Origin: Candidatus Melainabacteria bacterium
Lineage (GTDB): Bacteria; Cyanobacteriota; Vampirovibrionia; 2-02-FULL-35-15
DNA length: 43,500 bases
Assembly: GCA_023250205.1 (NCBI GenBank)
Contig: JAHFBE010000010.1
Coordinates: 1-43,500, forward strand
Reading direction: 5' to 3'
Position numbers and translations under genes: made by a program. How positions within the stretch are numbered: the first letter of the stretch is position 1; each line of letters begins with the position of its first letter. Positions 6,377-41,953 of this stretch are shown in pieces. The notes beneath the pieces are model-generated. The model worked only from the letters and a program-made list of their open reading frames with translations, ran no database searches and was not told the DNA's origin.

Positions 6377-6450
6377 TCGGGGCGACACGATTTGAACGTG
6401 CGACCCTCTGCTCCCAAAGCAGATGCTCTACCAAGCTGAGCCACGCCCCG
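6377..6450 (-). tRNA. tRNA-Pro(TGG)
   Basis: Reverse complement CGGGGCGTGGCTCAGCTTGGTAGAGCATCTGCTTTGGGAGCAGAGGGTCGCACGTTCAAATCGTGTCGCCCCGA folds as cloverleaf; anticodon TGG; paired acceptor stem. Confidence 0.93.
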
Positions 6451-6451
6451 A
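6403..6451. repeat. attL: 49-bp direct repeat (5' half of tRNA-Pro)
   Basis: accctctgctcccaaagcagatgctctaccaagctgagccacgccccga, identical to 15813-15861. Confidence 0.9.
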
Positions 6452-6482
6452 TACAATTACAACGGTTTCAACATTACTTATT

Positions 6483-6502
6483 TAGTTCCCGCTGTGCCAG
6501 CT
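6483..6502. repeat. Subterminal inverted repeat, left copy (TAGTTCCCGCTGTGCCAGCT)
   Basis: 18/20 match to the reverse complement of 15730-15749. Confidence 0.6.
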
Positions 6503-6880
6503 ATTTCAGTATTCAACAGGTTATATTCTACCTGACTTTATTTACATTGTATATGCCACTGATTAATATCGAATTATACAGGGGTAGGCCTTTCAATTTA
6601 AAACTGGTAATTACTCAGAAGTACTCTGGGTGGCCTTATATTAAATTTAAATTTGCCTGATGGTGGTTTATGTATCCAGGTGAAAAAAGATTCAGTGTAG
6701 GAATTCCTAGAGGGCCAGTTAGCAAAATAAAAGCTAATCCAATTTGATTATTGTTTTATAAGATTAACAACGATTACAACGGTAGCTACGATAGTTTTAC
6801 TGACTTGAAGGGCTACACAAGTTTTTATTTCTTTCCTAGTCCACTGGGAGGTATTGGGGTTTTGGTTTCAATTATGAGAC

Positions 6881-7105
6881 TTAGTTTGTATTACTCCCCT
6901 CTTGAGAGATTAAAGTTTGGTTTATTACAGAGTGTGATTTAGGATAGTCTGATACTTTTCTCCTTGCTGATTCTTCATCAAAAAGCTTTTTTGAAAGTCT
7001 TGCAAGCTGAATTATATGCTCTTTAGCTTCTTCAGTTGTAAAGCTCTTATAACACTCAGCATCACAAGTTTTATAACCTTGTTGTACTAAACTTTCATTA
7101 CACAC
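6881..7105 (-). CDS. Small hypothetical protein (element)
   Basis: 74-aa ORF overlapping the upstream ORF in an operon-like string. Confidence 0.35.
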   Translation of the reverse strand: MCNESLVQQGYKTCDAECYKSFTTEEAKEHIIQLARLSKKLFDEESARRKVSDYPKSHSVINQTLISQEGSNTN

Positions 7106-7287
7106 TGAGCTAATAAATCTTTTTCAGGTTTGGTTTTGGGATTTAGGTTTGCATGATGTAGGCAATTGTTTTCAAATATTGCTTCTGTAAGTATGCTATC
7201 CGAAATTATAGATATAAAAGAGAGTCCAAAACATTGAGATAAAAGATAGTTTGCAATAAGAAAATATAGAATATACTTCATTTGCAA
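7087..7287 (-). CDS. Small putative secreted/membrane protein (element)
   Basis: 66-aa ORF with hydrophobic N-terminus MKYILYFLIANYLLSQCFG. Confidence 0.4.
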   Translation of the reverse strand: MQMKYILYFLIANYLLSQCFGLSFISIISDSILTEAIFENNCLHHANLNPKTKPEKDLLAQCVMKV

Positions 7288-7532
7288 TTCTTACTTTTCA
7301 TCTTATTCAGAAATTCCTTAAATGAATAACGAAAATCATTTAATTTGTTTCTAATATAAGAAATAAAAACAAACATTAATGCCAAAAGAATCAATAACAT
7401 TAAAAGAAAAACAGGTAAAAATAAAATGACATAGGGATTAGTTATAAATCCCCACCAATTCTCTGTTTTCTGAGCTAATTCAAAAGCATCAGCTACTTTT
7501 TGTGCAATTAAGTAAACAAATCCTTTTAACAT
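7278..7532 (-). CDS. Small single-pass membrane protein (element)
   Basis: 84-aa ORF with TM FLPVFLLMLLILLALMFVFISY. Confidence 0.45.
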   Translation of the reverse strand: MLKGFVYLIAQKVADAFELAQKTENWWGFITNPYVILFLPVFLLMLLILLALMFVFISYIRNKLNDFRYSFKEFLNKMKSKNCK

Positions 7533-7535
7533 TAA

Positions 7536-7892
7536 TTACAGCTTTGCCTTTTTAACGATCTCAATCCCACTATCCCAAGAGCTGTCTGTAAGATAAATTG
7601 TTGTTTTATTTTTATTAAACCTTACTTTAATTGTTTCACCAATAATCAAGTCGTTTAATTTAGATTTTGTTTTGCCTAAATATGCTATATCACCAACTTT
7701 AATTACAGGATAATAAACATCTTTGCTTTGACCATGACTACCAATGACACCACCATCAAACTGATATTCTTGACCAATTTTAATGTCTAATAAAATGCCA
7801 TTTTCATAAATATGTTTTTCTTTTGCATAAGTTGGGAGAAATAAAATGGTAAAAAAAGCCAGAATAACAAATATATATCTAATATCAAACAT
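7536..7892 (-). CDS. Small secreted protein (element)
   Basis: 118-aa ORF with signal peptide FVILAFFTILFLPTYA. Confidence 0.5.
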   Translation of the reverse strand: MFDIRYIFVILAFFTILFLPTYAKEKHIYENGILLDIKIGQEYQFDGGVIGSHGQSKDVYYPVIKVGDIAYLGKTKSKLNDLIIGETIKVRFNKNKTTIYLTDSSWDSGIEIVKKAKL

Positions 7893-7994
7893 TTTCCTTA
7901 ATTCCTATTAAAGCTAACGCTAGATTATATTTTAGCATTCTCGTTACGACTAGAGTGTAGACGTATAGTCAGCACAAGATTATCCTGCCTTTAT

Positions 7995-8231
7995 ATGGCA
8001 AAAGGCTTAAAATTAATTAGTGCTTTTCTAGGCAACACTATCAAAGAACTAAGAAAAAAGCAGAGTTTATCTCAAGAAGAACTTGCAGAGCGTGCAGGTA
8101 TACATAGAACATTCATGAGTCATGTAGAGTGTGGGACACGAAACATTACTATCTATAATTTAGTAAAAATTGCTAAAGCTTTAAAAGTAAAACCATCAAT
8201 TTTATTGTTGGATATAGATGAAATTGCTTAA
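7995..8231 (+). CDS. XRE/Cro-CI family HTH regulator
   Basis: LGNTIKELRKKQSLSQEELAERAGIHRTFMSHVECGTRNITIYNLVKIAKALKV. Confidence 0.93.
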   Translation: MAKGLKLISAFLGNTIKELRKKQSLSQEELAERAGIHRTFMSHVECGTRNITIYNLVKIAKALKVKPSILLLDIDEIA

Positions 8232-8479
8232 ACATGATTTCTTGCAAACCCTTATTGCTAGAGTGATACAAGGGTGTTAAGTATAACTCATTCGAAAGAA
8301 GTGTAAACCATTTGTTATATTTTTATTTCAGCCCAATACTCTTTTCTGGTTAAAGAAAAGTGGGGCATATTTATAGCGATACTAAAAGGCTGTCAATAAA
8401 AAACATTAATTCTAATAGTGGCATTGTATGATGGACATGTGCCTTGTAATTAAGAGGTATTTCTAGGAGGAGTATTCTT

Positions 8480-8680
8480 ATGGAACAAAGTAAAGCAGCC
8501 AAAGACAGGGTAAGACCCTCTCTAAGGTGTCTAAACATAGAAGAGCCTTATTGGGGTTACCTTAAAGAGCTTGCAAAGGACAGTGCTAGATCTGTATCTT
8601 CTTTTGTCAAATGGATGACAATTAGAATCCATAAAGATCAAAAGGAAATAACTGACTTAGCAAAAATTGCACAAAAATAA
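8480..8680 (+). CDS. Small putative ribbon-helix-helix-like DNA-binding protein (element)
   Basis: 66-aa ORF with aggagg RBS; RPSLRCLNIEEPYWGYLKELAKDSARSVSSFVKWMTIRI resembles RHH layout. Confidence 0.45.
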   Translation: MEQSKAAKDRVRPSLRCLNIEEPYWGYLKELAKDSARSVSSFVKWMTIRIHKDQKEITDLAKIAQK

Positions 8681-8682
8681 AA

Positions 8683-8706
8683 AACTCCACATGGAGTTGT
8701 GGAGTT
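8683..8706 (+). terminator. Hairpin after the small RHH-like ORF (possible weak terminator)
   Basis: aactccac-atggagtt-gtggagtt: 8-bp stem with an alternative overlapping stem; no clear T-tract. Confidence 0.35.
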
Positions 8707-8776
8707 AGATTCTGAGAATAATTTAAATTAATCAGTTACATTGTATCAGATTTTAACTCCTTCAATAGCCTAAAAA

Positions 8777-9316
8777 GTGCTTTATGTTGAGCACATAGGA
8801 TTGTATTGTCTAAAAAAGGAGGGAAATATGTTTTGGGATCCAAATGAAGAAAATCAAATACTTGCCGCTGCAAGATTTTATTATCATATACGTAAGTGGT
8901 CAATAATTCCAATAGTAGGTGGAGATAAAATTCCACGCATTAGAAGTTGGAAAAAATATCAATCTGAATATCTTGAGCCTGAACAAATTGAATTTTGGTT
9001 TAGTAAGTCAAATGTAAATATTGGATTGATTACAGGAATTTTGTCAGGAGTTGTAGTTGTTGACTTTGACATAAAGAAAAATACTGGTGAGTTTTCGGAC
9101 ATTGCTAAGCAGCTTATGAAAGAAATGCCACCAACAATTATTTCAAGAACTGGTAGTGGTGGACTTCATTACTTTTTTAAATATCCATCAGATAAAAAAC
9201 TTAGTAACTTTGTTAAAAAAGACATCGGGGTTGATTTTAGGGGTGAAGGAGGCTACGTTGTGTTACCTCCATCTATTCATTCAAATGGAAAGGAGTATGA
9301 ATTCATATGCAACTAA
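8777..9316 (+). CDS. Bifunctional DNA primase/polymerase (AEP prim-pol) domain protein
   Basis: GVVVVDFDIKK (hDhD) and RTGSGGLHYFFKYP (sGGxH) motifs; the true start is probably the internal ATG at 8828 (MFWDPNEENQ). Confidence 0.85.
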   Translation: MLYVEHIGLYCLKKEGNMFWDPNEENQILAAARFYYHIRKWSIIPIVGGDKIPRIRSWKKYQSEYLEPEQIEFWFSKSNVNIGLITGILSGVVVVDFDIKKNTGEFSDIAKQLMKEMPPTIISRTGSGGLHYFFKYPSDKKLSNFVKKDIGVDFRGEGGYVVLPPSIHSNGKEYEFICN

Positions 9317-11178
9317 ATTTTGATAATATTCCAGTTTTACCTAGTGATCTTTTTAGCGAAATTGAATCTACTAATAAAAATAACTGGAATGAAATAAAAA
9401 ATGTTAACCCTGAAGGCACCAGAAATAATACATCCATAAAGGTTATAGGAAAGCTTTTATACTCTTTACCTCAAGATCAATGGGATACTGTAGGACTTGA
9501 ACTATTCAAGTCCTACAATCAAACTCACAATGCTCCCCCATTAGATGAGGAAGAATTAATGGCTAAATGGGAGGGGATTAAAAGGAAACACTTAGAACAA
9601 CCTGAAAAGAAAAAACAATCCCAAAAAGAGAAAGAAACAGATGGTTTTCTTGAGTTAATAGAAAATAAGGAAAAAACTGGTGAAATCATTTATTTTCATA
9701 ATGAGCTAAATGAATCATTTGTAAAGGTAGTAGTAGATGGTAATCCATATATTATGTCAACAAAAAGTAAAATGCTCAAAAGATACATTTTAAGACTGTT
9801 CTTGGAAACTACTGGTTTCATAATTCCAAAAGAATATCTAAACAGTTTAGTAGAAATGATGGATACAAAAGCATCTTTTGGCAAAAATAAGCATGAGTTA
9901 TCTGTTAGGGTAACAAAAGTTGATAACGTATTGTTCTATGACCTTAAAGATGAACAAAATAGAACAGTAAAAATTACTACTGAGGGATATGAAATTACAA
10001 GCCCACCGATAATATTTAGGCAATATCAACATCAAAATAAGCAAGTTGAGCCATCTTTTGAAGGAGATGTAAAACTTTTCTTAAAATATGCAAATATCAA
10101 AGAGAAAAAATATGAGATCTTGCTTTTAGTATGGATAATTGCTTGTTTTATAGCTGGTTTTCCTCATCCTATATTATATGTTTTTGGCCCCCAAGGAGCA
10201 GCAAAATCAACATTACAAAAACTAATAAAAGATTTAATTGATCCTTCATCGGTAGATTTAACTCCTCTAAGAAATGATTTAAAAGAGTTTATTCAGCTAT
10301 TAGCCCATCATTGGCTAATTGTTTTTGACAATGTATCTAGTTTGAATGAAGAAATGTCAGATGCTATGTGTAGAGCTGTTACTGGTACTGCATTTTCAAA
10401 GCGTGAACTCTATACTGACGACGAAGATGTTATTTATTCATTTAAAAGATGTATTTGTATAAATGGTATTAATTCTGTAATTGGAAGACCAGACTTATTA
10501 GAGAGAAGTATATTATTAGAGCTTGAAAGAATATCTCCAATTAATAGAAGAGATGAACATGAAATAATAACAGAATTTCAAAAAGATAAACCCCAAATAT
10601 TGGGGGGTGTCTTTACTGCTTTATCTAAAGCATTAGCTATAAAGAAAACAATTAAGTTATCTTATAAACCTAGAATGTCTGATTTTGCATCATGGGGTTG
10701 TGCAATCTCCGAAGCAATTGGATATAGTAAAAAGGAATTTTTATCTGCCTTATTTGACAATATAAAAGCACAGAATGAACAAGTATTGTGTGAATCTCCT
10801 ATTGCTCAAGCACTTTTATTTTTTATGGAAGGTCAAAATAAGTGGCATAATACTTCTTCCGTTCTACTTAATGAACTAAAAGTTATTGCTAACAAGTTGG
10901 AAATTAATGAGAAAGAGCTTCCAAAAACTTCAAATGTATTAAGCAGGCAATTAAATAAACTAAGAGCTAATCTTGCTGATATAGGAATTACAGTTATTAC
11001 TAATAAACCACTGAAAAGAGGGAGAGGGATTTATATTTCTAAAACTACTTCAATTAATGACAATATAGTTGATATCGTAGCAGAGGACATTAATTGTAAC
11101 GATGTCAACGATAACAACGATACTTCTGTTATATCAGATGTAAATGATCCTTATAGAAAATACAAAGAAGATGCCTAA
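9307..11178 (+). CDS. Primase C-terminal-like plus P-loop ATPase/helicase protein
   Basis: PEGTRNNTSIKVIGKLL region and Walker A GPQGAAKST with Walker B-like WLIVFDNVSS; 10-nt overlap with the prim-pol ORF. Confidence 0.8.
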   Translation: MQLNFDNIPVLPSDLFSEIESTNKNNWNEIKNVNPEGTRNNTSIKVIGKLLYSLPQDQWDTVGLELFKSYNQTHNAPPLDEEELMAKWEGIKRKHLEQPEKKKQSQKEKETDGFLELIENKEKTGEIIYFHNELNESFVKVVVDGNPYIMSTKSKMLKRYILRLFLETTGFIIPKEYLNSLVEMMDTKASFGKNKHELSVRVTKVDNVLFYDLKDEQNRTVKITTEGYEITSPPIIFRQYQHQNKQVEPSFEGDVKLFLKYANIKEKKYEILLLVWIIACFIAGFPHPILYVFGPQGAAKSTLQKLIKDLIDPSSVDLTPLRNDLKEFIQLLAHHWLIVFDNVSSLNEEMSDAMCRAVTGTAFSKRELYTDDEDVIYSFKRCICINGINSVIGRPDLLERSILLELERISPINRRDEHEIITEFQKDKPQILGGVFTALSKALAIKKTIKLSYKPRMSDFASWGCAISEAIGYSKKEFLSALFDNIKAQNEQVLCESPIAQALLFFMEGQNKWHNTSSVLLNELKVIANKLEINEKELPKTSNVLSRQLNKLRANLADIGITVITNKPLKRGRGIYISKTTSINDNIVDIVAEDINCNDVNDNNDTSVISDVNDPYRKYKEDA

Positions 11179-11221
11179 TGATTTCCGGTATTTTTAATTT
11201 AGGGGACTATACAATAGCCTT

Positions 11222-11656
11222 ATGATAGGGCTATGCGATAAAAGATACAAGTTAGATAGAAAGATAGAAGTAGAAGAATGTTTAAAGTTATCCATAAATT
11301 CTTTTTATGAGGCAAATCTCCTTAGAGATGGTGCCGATGGTCAAACATTATGGCTCAATTTATTTGGCAATGAAATTGCAAGAGTTGACTTCTCAATAAA
11401 TATCAAACCTTCCGATAATTTTATTCAACTAAAATATTTAATAAAGAATGTCAATAAAGTATCTTACACAGTAAGACTAATAACTACTAAATGTAATTTT
11501 TCTGGCGTAAGATACTGGTTTATTTGCCCAGCTATAAAAAACAATGAGCCTTGTTGCAAACGTAGCGGTGTATTGTATAAACCATACAACAGTAAATATT
11601 TCGCTTGTAGGTTTTGTTATGAGCTTACTTATCAGAGTAAGAAGTTTAATTATTAG
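11222..11656 (+). CDS. Zinc-ribbon-like protein associated with mobile elements
   Basis: RYWFICPAIKNNEPCCKRSGVLYKPYNSKYFACRFCYELTYQS Cys-rich C-terminus. Confidence 0.6.
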   Translation: MIGLCDKRYKLDRKIEVEECLKLSINSFYEANLLRDGADGQTLWLNLFGNEIARVDFSINIKPSDNFIQLKYLIKNVNKVSYTVRLITTKCNFSGVRYWFICPAIKNNEPCCKRSGVLYKPYNSKYFACRFCYELTYQSKKFNY

Positions 11657-11689
11657 CAAAAAGGTAGATTATGTATTAAAATACATTAT

Positions 11690-14608
11690 TCATCTTATTT
11701 TGTCATCATCTTCATCTTGCTCGTCTTTATTTTCTAGTAATCCCTTGTCATTTAGTTGATCTATTGCCTCCTTAAGGGTATTTTCAAACTGTTCTGGAGT
11801 CATATTTTCATCAATTTTACCTATTACATATTTTGCATCCTTATAACCTTTTGTTTCTAAATATTTTTTTGCAAAATAGTAAGCATCTATATATTTATGA
11901 CTTATCTTTTTGATTTTTCTTAAGTTCTTAGATCCAACAACATTTCCTATCTTTGCGTCATCATTAACCCTCTTTCCAAGAAGCTCATGTATTATTTCAT
12001 AATCATCATCTGCATTAATTTCATTAGAAATAGTTGTTTGCCCTTTTTTCTCTTCTAAGATGTAACATTCTTCACTACCATCCCAATCTACATAAACAGA
12101 TGTATTATATATAACTTTGTCTAATACTAAATAATTATCAAATTCAGCATTATTAAGTAAAAATAGTCCAACTATTTGATTTAAAACATCCAAATCCTTA
12201 TTATTTTTCCTATATAAGTTATAAGCAATATCAATTGCTTGGTTAAAGTTCTTTCTTTTTGAGTATAAGGAAGATAAGGATAGTTGCTCAGATTTGCTAA
12301 GACTTTCAAAATCTATAACAGCTAAAAGAAACTTATCAACTTCGTCAAACCTTTCCAATCCATATAAATAAGTTGCTCTTTCTAGCAATAAGGATAAGTC
12401 CCTTTCATTTACTTTAATAAGTTGTTCAATTAGATTTAATGCCTCTTCTTTTTTACCTGTTTCAAAAAGAAGGCTACTTTCTTTTAACGTATACTTCTTC
12501 AGCAAACCATGTCTTGCTCTTATTGTAGACATTATAGTTAATAATTGAGATTTGTAGTTAGCCTGATACAAGGATAACAACATTTTATCTAAGCGATCAT
12601 CTAATTTCCCTATATCCACAATATGTTCATAACATTTTGCTGCTTTGTCATATATCTTATATTCAAAAAAAGTTTCTGCAAGAATGTGAAAATTATTTGA
12701 TTCAGGATCTTTCAATGAAAGACTATATGCAGTGATTAGCATTGGTAGTCCCTTGCTAATTCCCTCCTTAGTACAAGTTAATATTGCATCATTAATTATT
12801 GTTCTAATAGATTCCGGAAAATCTTTCTTTAGTATATTCTTGATTCTTTCAGCATCCTTATCTCTATGATCATTTAGGTACATAGTTAACAATTTATCCA
12901 ATAATTCTTTTCGAACAAACAGATCTGCAACTTTATCCTCAATTGCATTTCCAGCAATTCTAAGTGCTTCTTCTTTGTTTTTCTTAATACCACTTCGCAT
13001 CAATAGGTCTATTAATAATAGTGTTGCTCTAGAAACACCAGACTTATTATGGAGTATTTTTGCCGAATTAATAATTTCTTCAGTAATTAAACTTGCATTC
13101 TCCGAATGCAAGACCAAATTAGCTTTATTCATTATAAAGTTTTCATTCTCAGGATCAGCTTCTAATGCAATATCATACTCTTTGATTCCATCTGCAATAT
13201 TACCTAATAAGTATTTTGCAAAAGCTCTATTAGCAAAAACGTGAATCCGGATATTTCGCATTTCCGTTCTTGAATAAATATCCCAAAGCTCTGAAAGCAT
13301 TGAAATTGCATCTAGGAGTTTCTTTTTTGAATCTTCGCTAATTTTGCTAGCCATTTTTTCTTTTGCAGCTTGCTCTATATAAATAGATGCTAGTAGGCTT
13401 TTTGCCCCCTCAATTATTTTTTTATTATCACCTCTTAATACTTTTTTAAGCCATTCCTCTGCCTTATCATTACTGTCTTTTTTAATGGCAACCGTGCCAA
13501 TTGCTAATGCTGTATGAGGTTGTTCTCTATATTGAACTGGCACTTTATTAATAACATCATTTAGATCTTCATTATCTTGCGAGGAACTAACTATAATTGA
13601 ATACGCAATATCACTTTTTTCATTTTTACTCAAAACTATTTTTGCTATCCTTATTGCTTCATCATGATTATTTAAGTTTTGCTTACCAATAGCATAATTG
13701 CATAAAGCTTTTTCATCTTCCTTATTGTGATCTAATGCATCAATTAAGTAATTTGCTCCTTCACTAACAACACCTTCATCTTTTTCGCTTTGAATACATT
13801 TTAATTTTCCAATACCTAAGCTTGTTAAGATTTTATATTTTTGAATTTCATTCGTTTCACCCCAATATTTTTCTTTGATCATATTAAATATCTTTATTGC
13901 TGTTATGCAACAATAATTGTCAACCAGATATTTACCTTGCTCAATTACTGCATCAATCTCTGAAGACTTATTTGGCTTATCTTTTATTGATTCTATTTTA
14001 TCTAGAAGTAGTTGAACTCCAGAGTCTATCTTCTCTGCTAATTTTTTGTTAGAAGGCGGGAAAAATTCATCTTTGATATCAGGGTTAGCATCTAATAGTG
14101 ATAATACTTTCACTCCATCCCAATAATGAAAACCTTTAAAGGGATATTTTTTTAAGTTCTTTTCTATTTTTTCCTCTATAGTGTCATGCGTTCCTTTTTT
14201 TGCTACTCCAGTAAAAGATACATTCGTGATTATAATGTAATAATCACATTTTCCATCTTTGAAGTAACCATATTTTTCTAAGCTTTTTGGTTCACTATCT
14301 ATATAACCTTTAATAGTACTTCGTGCATCATCCACTAAACCATGAGTATTGCAATATTTTGACTGAAAAATCCATTTACCATTCCATTTTTCTGTATGTG
14401 AAGGATAGTTGGCTTCTCCTGAATATGTTGCTTCTCTTCCACCATCCCTACCAGATCCAAAAATTATTGATCCAGGGCCTATTTCTTTTAATATAAGTGC
14501 TTTACAAAGGTCTTCAAACCTCTCATCCTTTAGTTCATTTAATTGTTCAAGACTTATTTTCATTGTAAATAAATTATTTACAATTATATCTTGTTGAGAT
14601 TTCACCAC
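11690..14608 (-). CDS. Mrr-like restriction endonuclease fold N-terminus fused to a long TPR array
   Basis: FEDLCKALILKEIG...GSGRDGGREATYSGE...WIFQSKYC resembles the PD-(D/E)xK Mrr pattern (D...QxK); about 700 aa of helical repeats; no P-loop seen. Confidence 0.7.
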   Translation of the reverse strand: MVKSQQDIIVNNLFTMKISLEQLNELKDERFEDLCKALILKEIGPGSIIFGSGRDGGREATYSGEANYPSHTEKWNGKWIFQSKYCNTHGLVDDARSTIKGYIDSEPKSLEKYGYFKDGKCDYYIIITNVSFTGVAKKGTHDTIEEKIEKNLKKYPFKGFHYWDGVKVLSLLDANPDIKDEFFPPSNKKLAEKIDSGVQLLLDKIESIKDKPNKSSEIDAVIEQGKYLVDNYCCITAIKIFNMIKEKYWGETNEIQKYKILTSLGIGKLKCIQSEKDEGVVSEGANYLIDALDHNKEDEKALCNYAIGKQNLNNHDEAIRIAKIVLSKNEKSDIAYSIIVSSSQDNEDLNDVINKVPVQYREQPHTALAIGTVAIKKDSNDKAEEWLKKVLRGDNKKIIEGAKSLLASIYIEQAAKEKMASKISEDSKKKLLDAISMLSELWDIYSRTEMRNIRIHVFANRAFAKYLLGNIADGIKEYDIALEADPENENFIMNKANLVLHSENASLITEEIINSAKILHNKSGVSRATLLLIDLLMRSGIKKNKEEALRIAGNAIEDKVADLFVRKELLDKLLTMYLNDHRDKDAERIKNILKKDFPESIRTIINDAILTCTKEGISKGLPMLITAYSLSLKDPESNNFHILAETFFEYKIYDKAAKCYEHIVDIGKLDDRLDKMLLSLYQANYKSQLLTIMSTIRARHGLLKKYTLKESSLLFETGKKEEALNLIEQLIKVNERDLSLLLERATYLYGLERFDEVDKFLLAVIDFESLSKSEQLSLSSLYSKRKNFNQAIDIAYNLYRKNNKDLDVLNQIVGLFLLNNAEFDNYLVLDKVIYNTSVYVDWDGSEECYILEEKKGQTTISNEINADDDYEIIHELLGKRVNDDAKIGNVVGSKNLRKIKKISHKYIDAYYFAKKYLETKGYKDAKYVIGKIDENMTPEQFENTLKEAIDQLNDKGLLENKDEQDEDDDKIR

Positions 14609-15738
14609 CCCTGCATCTCTTTAATAACTTCATCTTGACTTGTCATTAAATACCCCTGTGTAGTCTTTAAATCTGAGTGCCCTAATGCTAACGAAATAAT
14701 ATTTATAGGCTTGCCAGCATTGGCCGCTATCGTTGCAAATGTTCTTCTTAACCCATGAACATTTACATCTATGTTTATTCTTTTTGAAAGCCTTTTTACT
14801 TTTCTAAATAACGTTTCAGGAGTAAATGATACAGGCTGATTACTGGCTCTTATAGTGGTTATAAAAAAGTTTTCTAAGTTTGTTTTTAGTCTTAGCTTTA
14901 AGTAATTAGCAAGATAGTTGTAAAGCCTGTTACAAATCCCTACAACTCTATTTTTCTTTCCCTTCCCTAAATAAATAAACAATTTTCTGTTTATAAGATC
15001 AACATCTTGAAGTCTTAAATTACATAATTCACTAGCCCTTAAACCACTGAAAACTATCGTTGCAATCGTTGCACCGTTGAGTAATACATCATATGGTGAT
15101 TGACCATTACACCATTTAGAAGATTCTTCTAGTAATTTCTCAACATCTTCTTGAGAACAATGCAATTTCTTAGCCGGATAAACTCTTTTTGGTTTTAACT
15201 CCTTTAATTCTGTCAGTAATATTTCATCAACATAGCCCTTAATAGCTAAATATTTAATAAAAGAACGTATAGCCTTATATAAATTGTCCTTAATACTAAA
15301 ACTCTTTACGTCAATGCTTGCAAGAACAGTTCTTACATTCTCTTTTGACACCAAAACAGATTTGCCATACCTACGTGGTAATAAACTCCAATATTTCCCC
15401 ATGCAGTATTGATATAACTCAATAGTTTTATCACTTAATGCTTTTGCAGTTAATGCACCACTCTTACACCAGCTAATCCATTCTTCTTGTTTCTCTTGTA
15501 AGAACTTATAATCAGACAAATACCCGTTTGCTTTTTTAAAGCTATTTCTATTTTTCTTCCAATCAAAATATGAGCTTGCAGGTACTAAATAAATAAAACC
15601 ACCTTGAAATGGTTTAGTTATTGTAGGTATTTCATTATTCTTTGCAAGTTTTCTTATATATCGTTCAGAAACTCTTAAATCTGCTGCTATATCAGCAATT
15701 GATAAAGTATCCATCTTGTCCAGCCTTTCAGCTGGCAC
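14602..15738 (-). CDS. Tyrosine recombinase/integrase with N-terminal excisionase-like HTH
   Basis: TLSIADIAADLRVSERYIRKLAKNNEIPTI HTH; catalytic pattern SGLRASEL...VHGLRRTFATIAANAG...LGHSDLKTTQGYL. Confidence 0.92.
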   Translation of the reverse strand: MPAERLDKMDTLSIADIAADLRVSERYIRKLAKNNEIPTITKPFQGGFIYLVPASSYFDWKKNRNSFKKANGYLSDYKFLQEKQEEWISWCKSGALTAKALSDKTIELYQYCMGKYWSLLPRRYGKSVLVSKENVRTVLASIDVKSFSIKDNLYKAIRSFIKYLAIKGYVDEILLTELKELKPKRVYPAKKLHCSQEDVEKLLEESSKWCNGQSPYDVLLNGATIATIVFSGLRASELCNLRLQDVDLINRKLFIYLGKGKKNRVVGICNRLYNYLANYLKLRLKTNLENFFITTIRASNQPVSFTPETLFRKVKRLSKRINIDVNVHGLRRTFATIAANAGKPINIISLALGHSDLKTTQGYLMTSQDEVIKEMQGW

Positions 15739-15749
15739 AGATGGAACTA
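15730..15749. repeat. Subterminal inverted repeat, right copy (AGCTGGCACAGATGGAACTA)
   Basis: 18/20 inverted match to 6483-6502; overlaps the annotated integrase start. Confidence 0.6.
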
Positions 15750-15812
15750 ATCTAAATAGTTAAGTTGTTATATTTGTTACTTTAATATGAGTGGGGTTTG
15801 ATTTAAAATCTT

Positions 15813-15861
15813 ACCCTCTGCTCCCAAAGCAGATGCTCTACCAAGCTGAGCCACGCCCCGA
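15813..15861. repeat. attR: 49-bp direct repeat (orphan 5' half of tRNA-Pro)
   Basis: Identical to 6403-6451; the tRNA 3' half is missing here. Confidence 0.9.
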
Positions 15862-16049: not shown

Positions 16050-18146
<2,097 letters not shown>

Positions 18147-19698: not shown

Positions 19699-19818
19699 GT
19701 CATTGCGAGGAGCGTTAGCAACGAAGCAATCCCGATCTAACTTGCGCAAGTAGCTCGGGATTGCCACGCCTCACGGAGTTTACACTGAGCGAAGCGAATG
19801 TGCTCGGCTCGCAATGAC
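19699..19818. repeat. Palindromic repeat family copy B
   Basis: gtcattgcgaggagcgttagcaacgaagcaatcccg...cgggattgcc...ctcgcaatgac, 120 bp. Confidence 0.9.
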
Positions 19819-20206: not shown

Positions 20207-20331
20207 GTCATTGCGAGAAACGTTAGTGACGAAGCAATCTCACCTGACAACTACCAATTTATTCTCCTGCTCAAAATTGCTATATCCAAATGAGATTGCT
20301 TCGTCGACACTTTGTGTCTCCTCGCAATAAC
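20207..20331. repeat. Palindromic repeat family copy C (long subfamily)
   Basis: gtcattgcgag...gaagcaatctca...tgagattgcttcgtcgacactttgtgtctcctcgcaataac, 125 bp. Confidence 0.9.
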
Positions 20332-21817: not shown

Positions 21818-21911
21818 GTCATTCCGAGGGCTGAAAGCCCGTGAGAATCTCCTAACGCTTGTGAGATTGCTGTGGAGACGTTGCATGCAACGTCTCTTCC
21901 CTCGCAATGAC
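21818..21911. repeat. Palindromic repeat family copy D
   Basis: gtcattccgagggctgaaagcccgtgagaatctcc...gtgagattgc...ctcgcaatgac, 94 bp; carries a nested 22-bp palindrome. Confidence 0.8.
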
Positions 21912-21925
21912 ACGTGTCTATTTTA

Positions 21926-22924
21926 TTAGATTTCTTCATCTATTTCACAGCCTTCTACATCTCTACCAATAACTCCTCTTTTACTTGATTTAAAGAAGGA
22001 TATAAGTTTTTTTATTTCATCAAATTGAATAAGTTCATTCTCTGTTTTTCCCAGAGCATTTGTAGTATTTAATCCAGAAAGATAAATTAATTTATACGCC
22101 TTTGCAAGTTCACTTCTTACCTCAGGCTTAATTCCTCTCCTGCGCAATCCAACCCTGTTTATACCTCTTATTTTTGCAGGGCTTCCATCAGCAATAAAAT
22201 ACGGTGGGATATCCAGCCTGCTGCCAGTCATAGCACCAACTATAGCTGACTCTCCTATTCTACAGTGCTGATGAATAGTAGATAGACCACTAATAAAAAC
22301 ATAATCTTCAACTATTACATAGCCAGGAAGCATTGAAGTGTTTGCCATTATGACATTGTTTCCAAGCTGAACATTATGCCCAATATGAACATAATTCATA
22401 AGAAAACAATTGTTTCCAATTGTTGTAAATCCTTCTTTTGTAGCTCTGTGAACTGTTACATATTCTCTTATAACAGTATTATCACCAATCTTTACTCCCG
22501 TTAATTCATCTTTATAACTTATATCCTGTGGAGGCAAACCAATGCTGGAAGCAGCTACAAGTTTACAGTTTGCACCTATTTGAGTTTTTCCTTCAATAAT
22601 TACATGAGGACCTATATAAGTATTTTCTTTAATCTCAACATCAGGTCCAATAACACAATAAGGCCCAATGTTTACACCAGCTCCAATCTTTGCTTCTCTT
22701 GCTATTATTGCCGTTGGATGTATTATGGTAGGTGATTGATTTTGAAGACTTGTTGACATCATAGGTAAGTTTATCATAATACAATTTGTCAGGGTGTGTA
22801 AGAAATTCGAGGATAAATACTCTATGTCATTGCGAGAAGGGCAAAGCCCGACGAAGCAATCTCTGCTAACAGCTATCGATTTATTGTCCTGCTCAAAATT
22901 ATTGTATCTAAATGAGATTGCCAC
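21926..22924 (-). CDS. lpxA: UDP-N-acetylglucosamine acyltransferase; true start probably near MINLPMM/MMSTSLQNQSP (about 22757-22776)
   Basis: Hexapeptide repeats, HIGHNVQLGNNVIMANTSMLPGYVIVEDYVFISGLSTIHQHCRIG; upstream ORF extension runs through repeat copy E. Confidence 0.93.
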   Translation of the reverse strand: MAISFRYNNFEQDNKSIAVSRDCFVGLCPSRNDIEYLSSNFLHTLTNCIMINLPMMSTSLQNQSPTIIHPTAIIAREAKIGAGVNIGPYCVIGPDVEIKENTYIGPHVIIEGKTQIGANCKLVAASSIGLPPQDISYKDELTGVKIGDNTVIREYVTVHRATKEGFTTIGNNCFLMNYVHIGHNVQLGNNVIMANTSMLPGYVIVEDYVFISGLSTIHQHCRIGESAIVGAMTGSRLDIPPYFIADGSPAKIRGINRVGLRRRGIKPEVRSELAKAYKLIYLSGLNTTNALGKTENELIQFDEIKKLISFFKSSKRGVIGRDVEGCEIDEEI

Positions 22925-22951
22925 GTCGCCCTTCGGGCTCCTCGCAATGAC
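22826..22951. repeat. Palindromic repeat family copy E (long subfamily)
   Basis: gtcattgcgagaagggcaaagcccgacgaagcaatctc...tgagattgccacgtcgcccttcgggctcctcgcaatgac, 126 bp. Confidence 0.92.
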
Positions 22952-31268: not shown

Positions 31269-31946
31269 ATGAACCAATCCAAAATTCCTATAGTTTTTTC
31301 AGACTATGATGGCACTATCACGGAACGCGATGTAATTCTCTCTGTTATGGAAAAGTTTGCTCCCTCTGAATGGGTAGAGTTAAAAAATAAGATTCTTTAT
31401 GAAAGAACTATTACTTTAAAAGACGGGGTAGAGAGGTTGTTTGGATTAATAAAGAGTAGTAAAAAGGAAGAAATAACAAATTACATAAAAGAAAAAGTTA
31501 AACTTCGAGAAGGGTTTAGAAGATTTATAGATTTCTGTGAAGAAGAAAGATTTGAATTTTATGTTTTAAGCGGTGGAATAGATTTTCTTATTGAACCCAT
31601 TTTAGAAGAATTTAAAGAAAGAATAAAAATCTGTTGCAATAAGGCAAATTTTAATTCGGAATATATAACAATCGACTATAAATATTTACCAATAAACTGT
31701 TCACTCTGTGGGACTTGCGGGTTTTGTAAAATTGAAGCTATTGAAAAGTATCCAAAAGACAAATACTTAAGAATATTAATAGGTGATAGTTTGACAGATT
31801 TAGCTGCTTCTAAAGTAGTAGATATAGTATTTGCCAGGGCTGATTTGATAAAATACTTGGAACAGGAGAACATTTCTTACATTCCATTTTCAAACTTTCA
31901 CGAGGTAAAAGAACAATTAGTACAAAAATTATTAATAAAGAGCTAG
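31269..31946 (+). CDS. mtnX: HAD phosphatase, 2-hydroxy-3-keto-5-methylthiopentenyl-1-phosphate phosphatase
   Basis: PIVFSDYDGTITERDVI; YVLSGGIDFLIEPIL; IGDSLTDLAAS; follows mtnW. Confidence 0.88.
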   Translation: MNQSKIPIVFSDYDGTITERDVILSVMEKFAPSEWVELKNKILYERTITLKDGVERLFGLIKSSKKEEITNYIKEKVKLREGFRRFIDFCEEERFEFYVLSGGIDFLIEPILEEFKERIKICCNKANFNSEYITIDYKYLPINCSLCGTCGFCKIEAIEKYPKDKYLRILIGDSLTDLAASKVVDIVFARADLIKYLEQENISYIPFSNFHEVKEQLVQKLLIKS

Positions 31947-32008
31947 AAATACAGCAATCTAAAGCTGAATTAATTAAAGTCAGCAACGGTTTTTATGGCA
32001 AAGGATGG

Positions 32009-32629
32009 ATGCTTGGAACTTCAGGAAATTTGTCAATTTTAATTGAAGAAAATCCCCTTAAGTTTTTAATTACAGCTAGTGGTAAAGATAAAGGTGAATT
32101 AACAGAAGAAGACTTTTTGCTTGTTAATGAAGATGGAATCATTGCGAGCACTGAAAGTGCGAAGCAATCCCGATCACTACCACATCAGAATAATCGGGAT
32201 TGCTTCGTCGCTAACACTCCTCGCAATGACACTATAAAACCGTCTGCCGAGACTCTTTTGCATTCATCTATTTACAAACATACAAATGCAAAAGCAGTTT
32301 TTCATGTACACACGACTAACAGCACTCTTCTATCTATGAAGTCTGATAATAAAATAATTTTCTCAGGTCTTGAAATGTTAAAGGGATTAGGATTTAAATC
32401 TCACGATGTAAAAGTAACTGTTCCTGTAATAGAGAATTCCCAAGACATGGAATACATTGCTTCAATTGCTCCAAGTTTTATTATTGAAGATGTACCAGGA
32501 TTAATTCTAAAAGGTCACGGTATTTATGCGTGGGGAGAATCTGTTCAGGAAGCCAAAAGACATATAGAAATTTTTGAATTTATCTTTGAATATAAGATCA
32601 AGGAGCTTGCTCTGGGGCTTGATATCTAA
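32009..32629 (+). CDS. mtnB: Methylthioribulose-1-phosphate dehydratase (class II aldolase fold), with 31-codon repeat insertion; N-terminus probably extends upstream
   Basis: LGTSGNLSILI, KPSAETLLHSSIY, AVFHVHTTNSTLLS, ILKGHGIYAWG. Confidence 0.88.
   Translation: MLGTSGNLSILIEENPLKFLITASGKDKGELTEEDFLLVNEDGIIASTESAKQSRSLPHQNNRDCFVANTPRNDTIKPSAETLLHSSIYKHTNAKAVFHVHTTNSTLLSMKSDNKIIFSGLEMLKGLGFKSHDVKVTVPVIENSQDMEYIASIAPSFIIEDVPGLILKGHGIYAWGESVQEAKRHIEIFEFIFEYKIKELALGLDI
32138..32230. repeat. Palindromic repeat family copy G (inside mtnB)
   Basis: atcattgcgagcactgaaagtgcgaagcaatcccgat...atcgggattgcttcgtcgctaacactcctcgcaatgac, 93 bp. Confidence 0.92.
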
Positions 32630-40488: not shown

Positions 40489-40569
40489 GTCATTGCGAGC
40501 CTTCGAAGAAGGCGTGGCAATCTCATAACGCTTGGAGATTGCTTCGTCGCTTGCGCTCCTCGCAATGAC
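40489..40569. repeat. Palindromic repeat family copy H
   Basis: gtcattgcgagccttcgaagaaggcgtggcaatctca...gagattgcttcgtcgcttgcgctcctcgcaatgac, 81 bp. Confidence 0.92.
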
Positions 40570-41856: not shown

Positions 41857-41953
41857 GTCATTGCGAGCCGAATAAAATGAGGCGTGGCAATCCAGATCTA
41901 TGTTTACATAAATTGCTCGGGATTGCTTCGTCGCTAACGCTCCTCGCAATGAC
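41857..41953. repeat. Palindromic repeat family copy I
   Basis: gtcattgcgagccg...ggcgtggcaatcc...gggattgcttcgtcgctaacgctcctcgcaatgac, 97 bp. Confidence 0.92.

Follow-up and report, generated by a model that had tools for sequence, protein, structure and literature searches.

The window analysed, the whole 43,500-nt stretch of contig JAHFBE010000010.1, hosts at 31916-32629, on the + strand and counted from its probable start codon, mtnB, the gene encoding methylthioribulose-1-phosphate dehydratase. The gene has been identified by its matches to TIGR03328 salvage_mtnB (179 bits, cut-off 137) and PF00596, by comparison with the relatives L189, L190 and L191 (by coordinates, genomes G001, G002 and G005, respectively) and by its start context. 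The coding region begins upstream of the ATG at 32009, which corrects the listed ORF. The conserved N-terminus is not preceded by any ATG, GTG or TTG, either at the mtnX/mtnB junction of the window (31905-32010) or in L189-L191. In four species a GAGG/GGAG box lies within the end of mtnX, and about 9 nt downstream of it stands an ATT in the mtnB frame, at 31916 in the window; this arrangement suggests a conserved AUU start codon. Outside the insert described below, comparison with the sister species (L189) gives a pN of 0.12 and a pS of 0.73. mtnB is an intact gene under purifying selection; its being a non-expressed pseudogene, a possibility raised in an earlier note on this DNA, is contradicted by both the TIGR03328 score and the low pN/pS.

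A near-perfect palindrome of 93 bp is found at 32138-32230 (+ strand), stop-free and in frame with mtnB. The sequence opens with ATC ATT GCG AG, closes with CGC AAT GAC, and spans 31 codons in phase p0, which is the phase reading GTC ATT GCG (VIAR... frame). The in-silico translation, IIASTESAKQSRSLPHQNNRDCFVANTPRND, is flanked by ...LLVNEDG and TIKPSAETLLH. The earlier note had reported this in-frame copy before the KPSAETLLH of MtnB, and had placed it in the same phase as a second coding copy, 87 bp long; both statements are correct. The second copy lies in ligA (16758-16844, + strand, LigA domains on both sides, p0). The element consists of a left REP-like monomer (32138-32171, + strand), a spacer of 24 bp (32172-32195) and a right REP-like monomer in opposite orientation (32196-32230, - strand), with tag GTC at 32230 and tail CCC. 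The left monomer features a tag, ATTGC, the inner hairpin CACT-GAA-AGTG, GCAAT and the tail CCC, and its tag is mutated to AATC where the family has YGTC. The RNA fold predicted for 32137-32231 has a free energy of -45.2 kcal/mol (z = -9). According to a phmmer alignment to the Aquifex homologue 2irp, the insert falls in a six-residue loop (between residues 69 and 76 of 2irp), directly before KPSAE. This alignment was used for loop placement, and an AlphaFold model from a four-sequence MtnB alignment was set aside (pLDDT 39).

Other copies are scattered in the window. Those at 19699-19818 (120 bp), 20207-20331 (125 bp), 21818-21911 (94 bp), 40489-40569 (81 bp) and 41857-41953 (97 bp) are intergenic, and one at 22826-22951 (126 bp) lies across the 5' end of an lpxA-like ORF; lengths given earlier for these copies have been re-measured and are the same. 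The listed GTG start of the lpxA-like ORF falls within the repeat (RDCFVGLCPSRND) and is probably spurious. Matches to the element termini number 22 in the window, against 5.0 expected from shuffles. At the Rfam gathering threshold a tRNA was the sole match in the window, and the repeat itself matched no curated family.

The genome (G000) is a 2.08-Mb MAG of 83 contigs from Ca. Melainabacteria (Caenarcaniphilales-type), and its closest public relatives carry the names Ca. Melainabacteria and Ca. Caenarcanales. A census of 2.01 Mb, in which up to 3 mismatches were tolerated in the termini, identified 150 full elements (74-149 bp) together with 58 lone termini. The exact sequence TCATTGCGAG occurs 297 times in the genome, and the reversed control 0 times. 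Termini are GTCATTGCGAG / CTCGCAATGAC, and inner arms are mostly GAAGCAATC or GTGGCAATC. Each half-element is organized as (T/C)GTC - ATTGC - variable hairpin - GCAAT - CTC/CCC, and the two halves face each other across a spacer of 10-65 bp (median 22 bp, 150 dimers). In 262 halves tabulated, the base preceding the GTC tag is T in 184 and C in 73, and tails are CTC (172), CCC (55), CTT (23) or CCA (6). The closing stem opens with A-T pairs and is only 5 bp long (ATTGC/GCAAT); beyond it come an internal loop and another hairpin. Inner stems of at least 4 bp number 69 distinct ones, in which pairing is kept despite the varied sequence. Judged from this layout, each full copy resembles two (T/C)GTC-tagged REP hairpins of the CGTC/dRS3/RPE-4/6 superfamily joined head to head. 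The family is found in all 10 relatives of the same taxonomic family and is patchy beyond; of the 194 genomes in the class, 23 have perfect full copies.

CGTC REPs carry the tag CGTC, replaced in many members by TGTC or CCTC, a stem of 8-9 bp opening with A-T pairs, a loop of 4-5 nt and a short unpaired tail, usually CCA. They are mostly arranged in head-to-head dimers, with spacers often of 20-100 bp, lack a dedicated flanking transposase, and have been listed from five phyla. dRS3 of Neisseria and RPE-4 and RPE-6 of Rickettsia belong to this set, in-frame intragenic members are known in DNA ligase, tRNA synthetase and repair genes, and recB REPs of X. campestris and X. oryzae are located at about one site (PMC3733652). 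The melainabacterial repeats share with CGTC REPs the YGTC tag, the A-T pairs opening the stem, the organization in dimers, beside which lone monomers exist here, and the in-frame copies within genes. They differ in that the 5-bp closing stem encloses a second variable hairpin, monomers are mostly 31-40 nt long, tails are CTC or CCC and rarely CCA, and the host is outside the five listed phyla. As with RPE-1 of Rickettsia, a palindrome is found in frame in many unrelated genes and is apparently tolerated by the protein. RPE-1 measures about 150 bp and is said to encode a conserved peptide (review PMC10969869, citing Ogata et al. 2000), whereas the melainabacterial elements, compared by description only, are shorter and their peptides vary. 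Again by description, the intragenic MITEs named in PMC10969869, QMITE1 of Coxiella burnetii among them, are similarly small, non-autonomous repeats that contribute ORFs; no target-site duplication was found for the repeat described here.

Within ORFs, 26 elements have coding-looking flanks on both sides, and in 26 of 26 the frame runs through the element. Two of these are located on contig C70, which is syntenic to contig C7 at about 75% DNA identity and carries a second mtnA, with elements at nearly the same two mtnA sites. C70 probably entered the MAG as a contaminant and derives from a related species; without it, the coding set comprises 24 copies. Hosts include pabB/trpE-like, mtnA (two sites), metH, murT, CCA nucleotidyltransferase, prmC (two sites), recF, valS, hemC, ligA, mtnB, thiL, ribE, nadD, trmL, bioD and ubiD, and for most copies Pfam/NCBIfam matches to the left and right of the insert back their identity. 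The least certain coding copy is that of nadD (p2, 148 bp). No disrupted gene was seen among the coding copies; the few elements with both flanks coding but out of frame look like gene junctions. Since stop-free ORFs of at least 150 codons make up about 84% of the genome and in-gene copies only 17% of the copies, in-gene copies are strongly depleted. The predicted insert peptides are 28-39 residues long (50 in one doubtful case), and differ widely in sequence while hairpin pairing persists.

Some of the same genes are occupied in relatives. At the same nucleotide and in the same frame, mtnB of G001 (L189) has a 10-codon remnant (GTCATTGCGAGGAGTGAC.., GTC ATT GCG AGG AGT GAC GTG AAT ACG TTA). 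Computed from match coordinates, mtnB of G003 has a partial copy from the same offset and frame, and mtnB of G007 a 35-bp mini-copy in the same loop, 16 nt further on and in p1. In mtnB of G005 (SW_12; L191 2971-3340) an in-frame palindrome, GTCATTCCCG..CGGGAATGAC, is located in another loop and encodes CHSRLDREST..HLHGND; its sequence resembles dRS3/CGTC-1. ligA is occupied at one and the same nucleotide in G000, G001 and G003, and copies near the G000 site were also found in pabB (G003, G009), thiL (G009), metH (G009) and mtnA (G003). The copies at orthologous sites of pabB, thiL, metH and ligA resemble each other no more than randomly chosen copies do (ranks 57-119 of 150); clearly the same insert is found only at the second mtnA site, in G003 (rank 1). 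Shared ancestry for all common sites was rejected, because interiors are random-like at all but this site. Random-like interiors at common sites indicate that sites are retained or re-used, and that interiors turn over. That some sites are old and common to genera (ligA and mtnB, same nucleotide in G000, G001 and G003), the repeat within having been exchanged by gene conversion or re-insertion, is a rather doubtful proposal. If true, essential proteins of this family would carry a slot in which genome-wide repeat turnover replaces the loop sequence again and again, and housekeeping enzymes would have in it a standing source of diverse loops.

At 98% of the ends a T or C precedes the element, and the other end is complementary. 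No target-site duplication of 1-9 bp above shuffled pairing was detected in the element flanks, and a model of simple insertion with duplication, or of a classical TIR-transposon MITE, was rejected for this reason. Three relatives have a ribE shorter by exactly 29 codons, a clean empty site; the 86-bp element corresponds to a net insert of 87 nt, with a residual of 0 in all three. Copies whose length is a multiple of three must add just their own length. The two length classes (0 and 2 modulo 3) are not given directly by one fixed insertion chemistry, and variable end processing is possible. A search with PF01797 identified one RAYT-like Y1_Tnp ORF, on contig C29, which is not bordered by copies, and no repeat-flanked transposase. 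The mobilising enzyme might be an HUH/Y1 or RAYT-type transposase, a guess to which we give somewhat less than an even chance. The RAYT-like ORF (G000 C29:41876-42460; L089 1876-2460) holds its own in-frame palindrome, GTAGGGGCAGACCC..., with the complementary arm ending ...GGTTTGCCCCTAC.

Frame and length modulo 3 of coding and intergenic copies were compared, as the earlier note had proposed. The three frames are not equally used: 19 of the 24 coding copies are in p0, 4 (4 or 5) in p1 and 1 in p2. Coding lengths are 0 modulo 3 in 13, 2 in 10 and 1 in 1, and the corresponding figures for 124 intergenic copies are 46, 49 and 29. The idea of a shared frame thus holds as a preference, p1 and p2 copies also existing; that of lengths being multiples of three fits mtnB (93) and ligA (87), but only 13 of 24 coding copies genome-wide. 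Some combinations are closed by the termini themselves. In p0, elements of length 1 modulo 3 end with TCG CAA TGA, and none of 58 intergenic readings is open; a terminal stop likewise closes p1 at length 0 and p2 at length 2, with 1 of 92 and 0 of 98 intergenic readings open, respectively. p0 is the phase most often stop-free in intergenic copies. Stop-openness alone, estimated by pooling old and young intergenic copies, predicts p0 in 42% of the cases, a value significantly lower than the 19/24 observed (P = 2e-4). When only frame-preserving classes are counted and the position of the pyrimidine-purine boundary by codon phase is considered, the prediction becomes 63%, and the observed 19/23 has P = 0.05; for coding copies of length 0 modulo 3, p0 in 13/13, P is 0.03 after correction. 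Since up to 3 terminal mismatches were allowed in detection, the good preservation of termini in the coding copies partly reflects how copies were selected. The bias is mostly gone once stop-openness and the pyrimidine-purine boundary, which coincides with the codon boundary in RNY-type coding sequence, are allowed for. A small unexplained p0 preference remains, and is weak after correction.

The mtnB insert very probably represents one copy of a mobile palindromic repeat that is non-autonomous, and the coding copies that survive are the harmless, in-frame and stop-free ones filtered by purifying selection. The REP-hairpin dimer would insert at a pyrimidine-purine boundary without target-site duplication, and copies would scatter over the genome. 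In ORFs, survivors would be those stop-free in the frame of the gene, adding a net multiple of three and falling in tolerant loops, and would be translated as an extra loop of an otherwise working protein. In mtnB, the LLVNEDG strand and the KPSAETLLH helix are joined by a short loop, which the insert would lengthen. Dominance of the VIAR..RND / VIAR..LAMT frame would arise because it is most often open, and because pyrimidine-purine sites are mostly at codon boundaries.

Alternatively, copies could be kept for an RNA or DNA function, as determinants of mRNA stability, terminator-like structures or protein-binding hairpins, coding copies being by-products. The conserved pairing of varied stems and the intergenic location of most copies fit this explanation, but perfect copies range from 2 to 62 among species of one family and sites vary widely, and we consider it improbable. 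Still less probable is that the element has been selected or built as a translatable cassette with a functional frame or peptide, as the earlier note suggested. The prevalence of p0 is in line with a cassette, as is the p0-openness of every full element found in orthologous genes of G001, G003 and G009. However, other phases are used, p1 in G007 mtnB among them; openness is not kept family-wide, p0 being open in just 43 of 92 intergenic readings of length 0 modulo 3; peptides are diverse where hairpin pairing is kept, and of the mtnB insert the sister species retains just 10 codons. Neither selection on a translatable frame nor its design need be invoked, as copies bringing stops or frameshifts are filtered out, which explains most of the bias. 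Excision of the copy from RNA, or its bypass by the ribosome, would make the frame irrelevant, and a strong hairpin within essential genes may evoke such processes; we hold them very improbable, as one would not expect, were the insert removed, every in-gene copy to be free of stops and to preserve the frame, nor the 1-modulo-3 class to be near-absent from genes (1/24 against 29/124). A dead mtnB or an assembly error, which a fragmented MAG containing a foreign-looking contig might bring to mind, can be dismissed in view of the intact family match, a pN/pS far below 1 and the same-site copies or remnant in independently assembled relatives.

A mobile repeat tolerated within genes is a known kind of phenomenon. 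What is new is the clade, how densely essential genes are occupied, and insertion sites, apparently old, with interior turnover. A literature search for the motif matched only unrelated primers, and no description of such repeats for this clade was found in the literature searched, which did not include subscription papers. Rickettsia is still treated as the extreme case of protein-coding palindromes (review PMC10969869). Melainabacteria provide an independent clade with dense coding palindromes in genes normally deemed essential, in which empty sites, remnants, common sites and re-insertions are visible among relatives, so that it becomes directly testable whether peptides of this kind are junk that is tolerated or serve as raw material. 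For annotation, VIAR..RND and HCEE..RND stretches in such genomes should be regarded as repeat-derived.

Elsewhere in the window, a 49-bp tract of tRNA sequence is exactly repeated at 6403 and 15813, adjoining a tyrosine-recombinase-like ORF (14602-15738). The region 6377-15861 looks like an element of 9.4 kb that has integrated at a tRNA gene, with the 49-bp repeats as its two ends.
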